A stretch of 28,640 nucleotides of DNA from a virus: the IMG/VR virus record IMGVR_UViG_3300020450_000073, positions 1 to 28,640 of that record. One strand, given 5' to 3'. The first letter of the stretch is position 1. Each line of letters opens with the position of its first letter. The position numbers and the translations under genes were made by a program. The notes under the pieces were generated by a model. It ran no database searches, was not told the DNA's origin, and was given only the letters and a program-made list of their open reading frames with translations. This document shows, one piece after another, positions 316-5,269 of this stretch.

Positions 316-344
316 AAAGGGACTCGAATGGGTCCCTTTTTTTT
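316..344 (+). terminator. Rho-independent terminator after gp32, possibly bidirectional
   Basis: AAAGGGAC (316-323) pairs perfectly with GTCCCTTT (332-339) around an 8-nt loop, and the T-run extends to 344. It lies 15 nt after the gp32 stop and abuts the last codons of the converging minus-strand gene. Read on the minus strand the same stem is followed only by TTTCAAAAC, so termination in that direction would be weaker. Confidence 0.85.
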
Positions 345-2229
345 AATCACCAGTACTTGTTTGGAATCCGCCGCCTCCGCCGGATAATATAAGCATTCTC
401 ATTGCTGTAGCAGTATTACTTCCTAACATTGAACCGCCACCTAAATTAAAAGTATCACCGCCAGTAATGTTGTTTTGTGTTGATGCATCTATACCACCTC
501 TTCCAAAGTTATCAGTTGCTGTTTTAATTGCTTGCAATTCTCTTGATTTAAAGTCTATTTCATTACCCTCAGAATCAAGACCGTCCATTTTTGTTTTCTT
601 AGCTTCAAGTGCACCAGTTAATCCATTTGACATGTGTTCTCGGAATGCTTCACTAAATGCTTCCATACGTTCTTTAGGACCAGCTCTAAATCTAGTAGTT
701 AATGCAGCAAATGCGCCTTTAGCAATTGCTATTGGGAAATCTGCTATCTTAGTAAATATTTGTCCTATAGATATTAACATATTTTTTATTATTCCACCAA
801 AACCTATATCATCTAAAGTATCTCTTATTAAATTAAGACCATTTACTAAAAAGTCTGCAACTGCAAAATACATATTATCAAAGAATTCTGCAAATGAAAA
901 ACCGTCACTCATAGCTTCTGCAGTTTCTGTAAATCCGAGCTTTTTCAATATAAATGCTGGTATAGTAATTAATAATAAATCTAAAAATTCTCCTACTAAT
1001 ATTCTAACAGCACCTCTTGCAAAACCAACAACGCCTCTTATAATTCTTTCACCTCTATCTGTTATGCCTTGAATATCTTTAAACGCTCCCATAAGACCGC
1101 CTATCGCACCAAATAAAGGAAAGAGTAGTTTAGAACCTATCACTGACCCTATCCTAACAAATACAGCTTGTAATTTTTGAAAGAAGCCAAAAAATCTACT
1201 TAGTGGACCTGATTTAGCAAAGAAAGCACGAATCTTATCTCCAAGTTGAGAAAACTTTGTTCCATCTACGCCACCAAAAAATTTTAATGCTTTATCAAAT
1301 ACTCCACCGATTGAATTAATCATACCTACAAAGAAAGTTTTGATATTATTACCTATCTTTATAAATGGACCTTTAAATGTAGTAATTAAAGCTCCAAGCC
1401 CTGCAAAAAATTTAGAGTTAGAAGTAATTGCAAGCCTCATATCTTTTAAACCAGCAAATGCAACAGGTGCGCCAGTAAATACGCCTATAATTGCTCTTCC
1501 TATTTGTTTTAGATTAAAGAATAGATTTTTTACTATTTGTGTTAAATCTTTAAATATCATCCTTACTTCAGTAAAGACTTGACCCATTAAACTACCTTTG
1601 CCGGCACCTTGGAAAAATTTTGCTAATTTTGTATTTTTAAAGAAATTAAGAACATTAACTTTTATATTGTTTAAACCTTGTTTCATGGCAGCAAAGAGTT
1701 CAGGGAATTTCATTATTCTTACAAAGTCTTTTGTGACAGTTTTTATACCAGTAGCTACTTTTTTAATTGCAGCTATATATGGCGAAAGAAATCCTTGTAC
1801 TACGCCAATTACTAATCCAACAACTGCAGTTCTAAAAATCATTCCTAAAATAGATGACTTATCATCTTTAAACATTTTTAACAATAACTTGTATTGTTTC
1901 TTTAATTGTTTTAAATTATCTTTTAGAAAATCATTTCTTTTTTCATCTCTTTTTTCTTCAGCTCTTTGTCTTACAAGCTCTTCTCTTGAGGCTTCAATAT
2001 CATCTAATCTTCCTTCTCTTAAAGCAAGAATCATTTCTTGCATTGTTATTATTTGTTGATTAGTTAATTGATGACCTTCATTTTGTACGTAATCTTGTAA
2101 TTCATTGGCATATATAATAGATTCTTTTTGCAAAGCAGTTTGGTCATCATTCATTTCTTTCAGTTTGTCAACTACACTATCAAGTGTACTCTTAACTGGC
2201 CCTGTAGATTCTTTTGTTATTCTTGCCAT
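343..2229 (-). CDS. Tape-measure-like tail protein (628 aa)
   Basis: This long protein has the usual look of a tail tape measure. Residues 1-125 are charged, helical and probably coiled coil. Hydrophobic segments suited to membrane insertion lie near residues 125-146, 360-381 and 400-428. In between are repeated amphipathic helix-plus-FF patterns (FFKN, FFVG, FFGG, FFAK, FFGF). The C-terminus is Gly-rich and probably disordered. T4 gp29, the tape measure, is 590 residues, so the length fits a T4-sized tail. The gene is last in the minus operon, downstream of gp26, its putative frameshift extension and a two-TM protein; in lambda-type phages the tape measure follows the frameshifted chaperone genes. 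I recognise no sequence motif that proves gp29 identity, so the role is inferred from architecture and position. Alternatives are another internal tail protein or a hub protein. Confidence 0.6.
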   Translation of the reverse strand: MARITKESTGPVKSTLDSVVDKLKEMNDDQTALQKESIIYANELQDYVQNEGHQLTNQQIITMQEMILALREGRLDDIEASREELVRQRAEEKRDEKRNDFLKDNLKQLKKQYKLLLKMFKDDKSSILGMIFRTAVVGLVIGVVQGFLSPYIAAIKKVATGIKTVTKDFVRIMKFPELFAAMKQGLNNIKVNVLNFFKNTKLAKFFQGAGKGSLMGQVFTEVRMIFKDLTQIVKNLFFNLKQIGRAIIGVFTGAPVAFAGLKDMRLAITSNSKFFAGLGALITTFKGPFIKIGNNIKTFFVGMINSIGGVFDKALKFFGGVDGTKFSQLGDKIRAFFAKSGPLSRFFGFFQKLQAVFVRIGSVIGSKLLFPLFGAIGGLMGAFKDIQGITDRGERIIRGVVGFARGAVRILVGEFLDLLLITIPAFILKKLGFTETAEAMSDGFSFAEFFDNMYFAVADFLVNGLNLIRDTLDDIGFGGIIKNMLISIGQIFTKIADFPIAIAKGAFAALTTRFRAGPKERMEAFSEAFREHMSNGLTGALEAKKTKMDGLDSEGNEIDFKSRELQAIKTATDNFGRGGIDASTQNNITGGDTFNLGGGSMLGSNTATAMRMLILSGGGGGFQTSTGD

Positions 2230-2239
2230 TTAATGTTCT

Positions 2240-2617
2240 CTATTTTCCAAAAGCTTTACCAGCTTCTGAAATACCAAATGAACCTAGTGTGACTACTACA
2301 AATGATGTATATATTGTTTCAGATACTTTTAAGTCTATATCCCATACTAGTGCTGTCACTAAGTCTGTAATTCCAAAACACATCATTAAAAAGAAAGATA
2401 TAAATCCTATGATTGCTTTTTCATTTAAATCATTATCATCTAAAAACAAGTCGATAAATTTTCTTTTACGTGGTCCAAGTCGCTCTGCAGCTAACCTGGC
2501 TTCCTCTTTCATTTCTTTTATCTGGTCTTCTTGTTCATCAAGCTTCTCAATCATAGCCATATACTTATCTAAGTCTATTTCTACTTCATTTCTGCTGTTA
2601 TCTTGTACTTCAGCCAT
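2240..2617 (-). CDS. Small protein with coiled coil and two TM helices (125 aa)
   Basis: Residues 1-50 are charged and helical (EKLDEQEDQIKEMKEEARLA). A basic patch follows (RLGPRKRKF), then two hydrophobic helices around residues 68-90 and 98-118, ending GISEAGKAFGK. The start ATG overlaps the stop of the upstream 46-codon ORF by 1 nt (TAATG) and has a good Shine-Dalgarno AAGGAGA. Two TM helices with a short C-tail recall small holins, but the position between the gp26 chaperone region and the tape-measure candidate argues for a tail role. In T4 the membrane-associated hub protein gp28 lies between 26/51 and 29, a positional parallel only. I do not recognise the family. Membrane localisation is the one property the sequence clearly supports. 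Confidence 0.75.
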   Translation of the reverse strand: MAEVQDNSRNEVEIDLDKYMAMIEKLDEQEDQIKEMKEEARLAAERLGPRKRKFIDLFLDDNDLNEKAIIGFISFFLMMCFGITDLVTALVWDIDLKVSETIYTSFVVVTLGSFGISEAGKAFGK

Positions 2618-2757
2618 TATCTCATTCTCCTTTCTTCGGCTTTTATCCGTTCGTTTTCTTTATCTATATGTTCCTTGAGAAGAGCTATGTATATCTCCCT
2701 TTCCCACGGCACCATATTATCTAATTCTGTCAAAGAATATTGATGATGCTGCATCAT
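2617..2757 (-). CDS. 46-codon ORF, likely C-terminal domain of a gp26 frameshift fusion
   Basis: The ORF starts at a tandem ATG ATG (2757-2752) and ends in TAA at 2619-2617. It encodes a 46-residue helical protein with HHQYSL, then DNMVPWEREIY, then a charged tail ending EERRMR. No AGG, GGA or GAG occurs in the roughly 25 nt before ATG ATG, whereas the neighbours have clear ribosome binding sites. The frame is open upstream without a stop to the end of gp26, where it is the -1 frame leaving the slippery run at 2811-2817. With frameshifting it would be residues 254-299 of a fusion protein. The pattern of acidic and aromatic residues on a short helical tail is like the T portion of tail assembly chaperones, but this is inference. 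It could also be translated alone by coupling, as an independent small hub-assembly protein. Confidence 0.7.
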   Translation of the reverse strand: MMQHHQYSLTELDNMVPWEREIYIALLKEHIDKENERIKAEERRMR

Positions 2758-2804
2758 TGCAAAGTTTGTCTTATAATGGTTTACAAGACTATCGTGCGAA
2801 AGGC

Positions 2805-3515
2805 CTACGTAAAAAAACTAGTAAGTCCTCTTAATTCTTGTTTTTGTTCCTTTCCACAAGTACATTTAAACTCTACATCATGTTTTAAACTAGGCATATC
2901 TCTAAAAAAGTCTGATAATCTCATAAATTGTACAGTGCTTAAAGAATCTATAAACTTTTGCAAGTTTTCTTTAGTTTCATCTTCTACAGGATATACTTCA
3001 TCCTTATCAAAGATTACATCTATACTAGACATTATCATATTCATTGCCTGTTCAGCATCAGTATCTCCGACTTCAGTTAATTTTTCCATATATTTCATAG
3101 ATGGATATTTCATTACAACACCTACTTCATCAGTAATCATAATTTTGTTAATTTCATCAGTCATTACTGGTCTTTCAATATCATCAAAATTTATAACTAT
3201 GTCATTGACAACGTCACATTCTTCATCTTCACATTTTATTTTTAAATCAACTGTTTCACCAACTGATTTAGACCTTAATTCTAGAAATATTGTTTCAATG
3301 TCAAACATTGCTAACTCATCTATATTAAGTTCATCATTAACACAAGATTTAATAACATCTGCTGTAGCCTTCATAATAACTTTATTATCATTAGACTCCA
3401 TAGCCATCATTAATATCTTTTCTTCTTTAACTAGATATGGTCTGAAAGAAATAGTATCTCCAGTTGATGGTATTACCATCTCATACCTAGCTGTATTTAG
3501 CTCTGGTAAAGCCAT
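2805..3515 (-). CDS. gp26: gp26-like baseplate hub assembly protein/chaperone
   Basis: This 236-aa protein reads as the T4 gp26 family (T4_baseplate): a short N-terminal beta segment (residues 10-30, IPSTGDTISFRPYLVKEEKI), a helical region with NDNKVIMKATADVIKSC, then a beta section. T4 gp26 is 208 residues and acts in baseplate hub assembly. C95 and C100 (CEDEEC) together with C218 and C220 (CTC) could form a four-cysteine metal site. The start has AGGAGA a few bases upstream and lies 17 nt after the gp54-like stop. The last residues, LTSFFT, lie on a slippery T-run that would let some ribosomes read on into the downstream small ORF, giving about 299 residues. That arrangement suggests a tail chaperone role comparable to lambda gpG. 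Family assignment is good; the chaperone role is inferred. Confidence 0.8.
   Translation of the reverse strand: MALPELNTARYEMVIPSTGDTISFRPYLVKEEKILMMAMESNDNKVIMKATADVIKSCVNDELNIDELAMFDIETIFLELRSKSVGETVDLKIKCEDEECDVVNDIVINFDDIERPVMTDEINKIMITDEVGVVMKYPSMKYMEKLTEVGDTDAEQAMNMIMSSIDVIFDKDEVYPVEDETKENLQKFIDSLSTVQFMRLSDFFRDMPSLKHDVEFKCTCGKEQKQELRGLTSFFT
2811..2817 (-). promoter_or_regulatory. Candidate programmed -1 frameshift site T_TTT_TTT in gp26
   Basis: On the minus strand gp26 ends AGT TTT TTT ACG TAG. The seven T's form an X_XXY_YYZ heptamer in the correct phase, eight bases before the end of the gp26 stop. After a -1 slip the next codons are TAC GTA GGC and the frame stays open for 64 codons to the TAA at 2617. 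The -1 frame has a TAG immediately upstream of the heptamer, so entry must occur at the run. An anti-SD-like AGAGGA ends 8 nt upstream of the heptamer, similar to the stimulator of dnaX frameshifting. A 7-bp hairpin (GTCTTGT/ATAAGAC) begins about 21 nt downstream, rather far for a classical stimulator. Confidence 0.65.
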
Positions 3516-4828: not shown

Positions 4829-5269
4829 TTATAGTATCTTTATACCTAAATTTTTTAAAGTTTCTTCAGTCCATACCTGAAACTTCCAACCTTTATGTTC
4901 AGCAAATTCTGCTGCAGCCTCCCATTTATCTTGATTCTTAATAAATGTAAGTTGTTCATTGATATATCTTTTAGTTTGTCTTTTAGGCTTTTTAGGTGGC
5001 TTTGTTTCTTTTTTTGGTTTAATCTCAACTAGATAAGTTGATTTATCGTTCATTTGTATTAATAAGTCTACAAAATATCTATGTAGTTTTTTATCTACAG
5101 TAGATTTATATGGTACAACTACTTCTTCTGAATTCCACATTTTAACATTTGGATTATTTTCGCACCATTTAAATGCTTGTCTTTCCCATAAAGAACGATA
5201 TACTACTTTTTTAGCGTCACCTGCATACTTTTCTGGATGTTTTAATGTGTATCTACCTTTATAACTCAT
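4829..5269 (-). CDS. gp4: gp4 head completion nuclease-fold protein
   Basis: This 146-aa protein matches the T4 gp4 (head completion) pattern: KHPEKYAGDAKKVVYRSLWE at the N-terminus, SEEVVVPY, then KKLHRYFVDLLIQM and YLVEIKPKKE. These suggest a PD-(D/E)XK/TnsA-like nuclease core, with E29 in WER, D68 in YFVD and E82-x-K84 in VEIK as likely catalytic residues. T4 gp4 (about 150 aa) acts after DNA packaging to finish the head before tail joining. A very basic stretch, residues 84-101, follows the EIK motif and probably binds DNA. It is the first gene of the minus operon, with two overlapping late-promoter motifs upstream. Only a weak AGAG lies before the start. The identification is confident; catalytic residues are assigned by pattern. 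Confidence 0.88.
   Translation of the reverse strand: MSYKGRYTLKHPEKYAGDAKKVVYRSLWERQAFKWCENNPNVKMWNSEEVVVPYKSTVDKKLHRYFVDLLIQMNDKSTYLVEIKPKKETKPPKKPKRQTKRYINEQLTFIKNQDKWEAAAEFAEHKGWKFQVWTEETLKNLGIKIL

Follow-up and report, generated by a model that had tools for sequence, protein, structure and literature searches.

The window, a stretch of 28,640 nucleotides of viral DNA analysed over its whole length (IMGVR_UViG_3300020450_000073), has T4-like phage tail genes on each of its strands. The gp26 gene lies on the minus strand (2805..3515) and encodes a protein of 236 amino acids that matches PF12322 in Pfam (E 1.5e-56) and phrog_150, "baseplate hub", in PHROG (E 2.9e-63); it is interpreted here as the short form of a chaperone pair (TAC-N, similar to lambda gpG). 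It is followed on the same strand by a gene for a 125-aa protein (2240..2617), for which no family could be assigned as neither PHROG nor Pfam gave a match, and by a gene for a 628-aa tape-measure-like protein (343..2229), the match of which to phrog_1272 ("tail length tape measure protein") is weak (E 2.6e-5). An earlier note on this DNA had placed a tape-measure-like gene one gene after the chaperone, and this order, with a single small gene in between, is borne out to the extent that this weak match allows; the 628-aa protein is presumed to be the client of the gp26 chaperones. Caulobacter phage Cr30 has the same gene order, with an annotated tail tape measure. Small unknown proteins are also encoded at the position of the 125-aa protein in the phages Mosig, Cr30 and phiM9. 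Elsewhere in the window, the gp4-like head closure protein (4829-5269) has a match in PF08722, the N-terminal family of TnsA-like endonucleases (E 6e-20).

The 3' end of gp26 reads AGA GGA CTT ACT AGT TTT TTT ACG TAG. Its seven T's (2817..2811, minus strand) form a T_TTT_TTT heptamer in X_XXY_YYZ phase relative to gp26, the last codon of which sits one codon before the stop, and a Shine-Dalgarno-like AGAGGA (2826..2831, minus strand) is found 8 nt upstream. After slipping one base back, the sequence reads FFYVGLSHDSLVNHYKTNFAMMQHHQYSL... and ends at 2617; the -1 frame is open for 64 codons past the slip pair, up to a stop at 2617-2619, giving a product of 299 aa. The phase, the open frame and the product length of about 299 aa proposed in the earlier note are thus all present in the sequence, as is the AGAGGA motif at the distance given there. 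A TAG in the -1 frame directly precedes the T7 run, so that this frame does not open until 10 nt short of the gp26 stop; the suggestion that this TAG restricts entry to the run holds for the window and fails for part of the wider group, as only some relatives have a -1-frame stop directly upstream of the run, the frame being open farther upstream in the others. Residues 2-65 of the extension (FFYVGLSHDSL...RRMR; 2617..2817, minus strand) match phrog_634, "baseplate hub assembly catalyst" (E 3.1e-27), and the extension has a further match at the far end of phrog_150, the profile found for gp26; it is assigned as a putative TAC-C domain, similar to lambda T, on the basis of phrog_634, its coding signature and its homology to the C-terminus of T4 gp51. 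The 46-codon open reading frame at 2757..2617 (minus strand) is the last part of this -1 frame. As the earlier note had remarked, it has no upstream Shine-Dalgarno sequence (upstream letters ATTATAAGACAAACTTTGCA), unlike gp26 and the next gene in the window, both of which have one.

The DNA is AT-rich, and the T-run could in principle be a chance homopolymer with no function, in line with the caution expressed in the earlier note that such runs are common in DNA of this kind. The counts go the other way: the window contains 13 T7 runs, about a third of the mean of 37 in dinucleotide shuffles, and this rarity, on both strands, suggests that slippery runs are avoided. The 18 main genes of the window (8778 codons) contain 93 in-phase X_XXY_YYZ heptamers, and only that of gp26 leads into a -1 frame reaching more than 90 nt beyond the end of its own gene. 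With this unique reach past the gene end, the deficit of T7 runs, the conservation of the site and its synonymous constraint all standing against chance, the probability of a functionless run is negligible. This candidate was rejected because the site is conserved in phages infecting Pelagibacter, cyanobacteria, Caulobacter, rhizobia, Aeromonas and Vibrio.

Relatives of gp26 were gathered from named phages and IMG/VR, and 267 had a readable gp26 end; scans of viral contigs with the gp26 of Caulobacter, Aeromonas and Kuja phages yielded few loci. The hosts include Pelagibacter, Methylophilales, Prochlorococcus, Synechococcus and Caulobacter, together with Sinorhizobium, Rhizobium, Stenotrophomonas, Aeromonas and Vibrio. 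An in-phase heptamer is found near the gene end in 264 of these 267 relatives, which are phylogenetically correlated, so that neither this count nor the codon counts given below represent independent events. The heptamer takes the form T_TTT_TTC (162 relatives), T_TTT_TTT (100) or T_TTT_TTG (2), and is separated from the stop by one codon in 232 cases, by none in 16 and by eight in 16. Pelagibacter phage Mosig (locus L087, 1803-2534) belongs to the group with eight gp26 codons after the heptamer. All 260 complete -1 extensions are open, over 56-69 codons, and none is short. These were the two comparisons proposed in the earlier note, and both came out in favour of frameshifting. A purine motif is also present about 8-10 nt upstream of the heptamer in most relatives, at a nearly fixed distance. 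The extension is present but unannotated in Aeromonas phage Aeh1 (locus L091, 3200-3390), S-CAM1 and P-RSM1 (loci L005 and L100).

The three exceptions to the heptamer are Ackermannviridae. In members of this family too (loci L092, L094 at 3292-3477, L271, L272 and L273), gp26 is followed in the -1 frame by a TAC-C-like domain. The canonical heptamer is missing from them: the Kutter-, Limestone- and Klebsiella phages have ATT TTC ATT TAA in common, and the Vibrio phages of the family share CTT TTT NNN TAA. In Ds20CZ, the -1 frame is closed until 10 nt ahead of the gp26 stop, which calls for an unusual shift site or some other mechanism.

Codon choice around the site was analysed at synonymous positions in 217 distinct gp26 genes. 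The first Phe codon of the run is TTT in 217/217, against a background of 0.76. In the codon before the run, Ser is AGT or TCT in 156/156 (about 46% of Ser codons elsewhere lack a final T), Asp is GAT in 44/44 and Asn is AAT in 14/14. At the position of the Shine-Dalgarno-like motif, Glu is encoded by GAG in 72 of 95 cases (background 0.28) and Arg by AGA or AGG in 50 of 53 (background 0.69). This codon bias indicates that the motif upstream of the heptamer is under synonymous selection, and AGAGGA at 2826..2831 is likely to act as a stimulator of the frameshift. Synonymous variation along the fusion falls to zero at codons 232-235 and again at codons 237-238, where the 0-frame stop overlaps; in pelagiphages it is zero across the run and returns to the gene average about three codons after the slip.

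Some of these observations also bear on the possibility that the long form is translated from an edited mRNA, generated by RNA polymerase slippage on the T-run. AT-rich bacteria are known to show polymerase slippage at T/A runs, and the run does consist of seven T's in this phage. However, 162 of the 264 relatives have six T's followed by C, the X_XXY_YYZ phase is kept in 264/264 although slippage by a polymerase requires no phase, and the Shine-Dalgarno-like motif lies at the distance of a ribosomal stimulator and is itself under synonymous selection. Transcriptional slippage therefore appears very improbable, and frameshifting by the ribosome is retained as the explanation for the heptamer.

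A different account would have gp26 end at its TAG and translation reinitiate at the ATG at 2757, yielding an independent gp51 of 46 aa. Many relatives do have an ATG there, S-PM2-like phages have one just after the gp26 stop, and gp51 is listed as a separate gene in public annotations. The stretch before the ATG is, however, kept as a -1-frame protein. Over the 18 codons from the slip to the ATG, pairwise comparison of 30 unique pelagiphage sequences gave 2587 synonymous and 714 nonsynonymous differences in the -1 frame, versus 368:2692 and 240:2871 in the two other frames, each of which contains a stop in 30/30 sequences. A coding signature of this kind before the first shared ATG points, as an evolutionary signature, to translation of this stretch in the -1 frame. 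The ATG is, moreover, missing from this place in several aligned relatives, and the distance between the slip and the first start codon varies from 1 to 32 codons; Shine-Dalgarno sequences are nearly absent before start codons in the extension (3/203, versus 195/263 for gp26 starts), and in T4 gp51 the domain of the extension is joined to an N-domain. Reinitiation is accordingly given about as little weight as polymerase slippage, and an independent 46-aa gene was rejected because of the coding-frame evidence and the lack of a Shine-Dalgarno sequence.

The potential for RNA structure was assessed as z scores of 50-nt windows just downstream of the slip, with control windows taken 200 nt upstream. 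Mean z was -2.7 in cyanophages, -1.9 in pelagiphages and -1.4 in Mosig-like phages, versus 0.0, -0.4 and -0.4, respectively, in the controls. A few nucleotides downstream of the heptamer there are strong stems in S-PM2 (z -3.9) and P-SSM2 (z -3.3), and a stimulatory role for downstream structure is plausible in cyanophages. In the window, a possible stem-loop, GTCTTGTAA-ACCA-TTATAAGAC (2768..2789, minus strand), begins 21 nt after the heptamer, with a weak z of -1.1 in a 73-nt window. It is absent from the RNAalifold consensus of the pelagiphage alignment, in which the search for a conserved downstream element returned weak long-range pairing only (covariation term -0.11); downstream structure is possibly a stimulator in this phage too, albeit a weakly supported one. 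A more general model, in which a three-part signal (Shine-Dalgarno-like motif, T_TTT_TTY and downstream stem) has diverged by lineage in its RNA part, being strong and close in cyanophages and more distant or weak in pelagimyophages, with Ackermannviridae using an unusual shift site and no canonical heptamer, is put forward only tentatively and is rather doubtful.

The predicted structure of the short form is consistent with a chaperone. AlphaFold2 was run on 65 sequences, and the gp26 model has a pLDDT of 87. In Foldseek, the top two PDB chains come from a single entry, 2ob9, the tail assembly chaperone of HK97 (E-values of 0.17 and 0.50, with probabilities of 0.92 and 0.28), and VIA-align ranked 3fgx (Z 7.9), 2ob9 (7.6), YqbN 3klu (7.3) and the PICI-like ORF19 protein 5ir0 (5.4) ahead of the next match (4.0). 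These matches cover residues 1-95 of gp26 only, and searching PDB chains with the gp26 sequence produced no meaningful match. HK97 gp13 (2ob9) and Bacillus subtilis YqbN (3klu) share their fold with predicted gp26 residues 1-87, whereas about 150 further residues of gp26 are unmatched by either structure. Each of these values is moderate, but their agreement is telling, and gp26 may be assigned a TAC-N fold with moderate confidence.

Profile alignments relate both forms to T4 proteins. The short form matches T4 gp26 (E 6e-23), and the frameshift product aligns with T4 gp51 (E 1.5e-17, 236 columns) from end to end, the alignment crossing the slip site and reaching the final gp51 residue. Taken by itself, the extension matches the T4 gp51 C-terminus (E 1.2e-8) and has no match to gp26, and T4 gp26 and T4 gp51 match each other (E 6.6e-7). 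It follows from these matches that T4 has a gene for each form, short and long, with marine phages making the long form by frameshifting. The long form of T4, gp51, is a single open reading frame of its own, whereas the downstream open reading frame here holds the C-domain only, with no second N-domain. The annotated "gp51" of cyanophages and pelagiphages is, judging from these alignments, the frameshift tail of gp26. Cyanophage gp51 has been described as about 20% as long as other gp51 proteins, with C-terminal similarity only and without the first ~200 residues of T4 gp51, and Aeh1 as seemingly lacking gp51 (PMC3037559, 2010). A frameshift route to the long form accounts for both remarks; Aeh1 has an unannotated extension. 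The puzzle of the short cyanophage "gp51" is thereby explained: this tail of gp26 is often annotated as a separate gene in marine phage records, or left out.

Two versions of the chaperone are thus almost certainly made through a one-base back-slip of the ribosome at the seven T's. In the mechanism proposed, a fraction of the ribosomes reaching T_TTT_TTT before the gp26 stop would move one base backwards together with both Phe-tRNAs, assisted by pairing of the upstream AGAGGA with 16S rRNA and possibly also by downstream RNA structure. The slipped ribosomes would read 64 further codons, producing the long form (TAC-NC, about 299 aa), and the 46-codon "gp51" would be the frameshift domain rather than an independent gene. 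On the model of lambda G/GT, the tape measure protein would be coated by many copies of the short form and few of the long form, which would also recruit subunits of the tail tube. We put at roughly 93% the probability that gp26 and gp26-fs are the TAC-N and TAC-NC of a T4-related pelagimyophage, the long form arising by -1 frameshifting at T_TTT_TTT; slippage in vivo, the ratio of the products and binding to the tape measure are what we infer from the sequence. The equivalence to G and GT suggested in the earlier note is supported by frame evolution, synonymous constraint, T4 gp51 homology and the HK97/YqbN fold match.

Vladimirov, Gautam and Davidson, writing in Virology in 2022, reportedly identified the tail assembly chaperones of T4-like phages and found frameshifting to be conserved in several groups, T4 using genes 26 and 51. 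Poly-T -1 signals in the TAC-N genes of T4-like phages are known, the credit being given in PMC12846349 to Vladimirov et al. 2022 (PMID 34826709, cited in PMC10885494 as well), and some T4-like phages carry one short and one long chaperone gene (PMC10885494). The in-phase heptamer and the T4 gp26/gp51 homology described here agree with both points. The earlier note knew of no description of frameshifting in gp26 but allowed that there might be one; for T4-like phages it is described (PMC12846349), but for pelagimyophages no description was found. More broadly, our literature search found no direct description of gp26 frameshifting in pelagiphages or cyanophages; if either group was part of the 2022 study, the pelagimyophage case is already known. 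It looks as though gp26 frameshifting is largely known for T4-like phages, with the pelagimyophage case undocumented. The site provides a cleanly conserved natural frameshift signal in phages of SAR11 and cyanobacteria.

The arrangement resembles lambda gpG/gpGT, in that a short form and a -1 frameshifted long form are encoded upstream of the tape measure gene. The slip site of lambda G/GT is G_GGA_AAG; it is T_TTT_TTT here, and there is an extra small gene before the tape measure gene. The layout also resembles that of E. coli dnaX, in which a Shine-Dalgarno-like motif about 10 nt upstream, a slippery heptamer and a downstream structure are combined, but the heptamer here is T-rich, the structure is weak in this phage (and clear in cyanophages), and the gene is unrelated. 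With the separate long gene of T4 set beside the frameshifted version, two routes to one chaperone pair can be compared.
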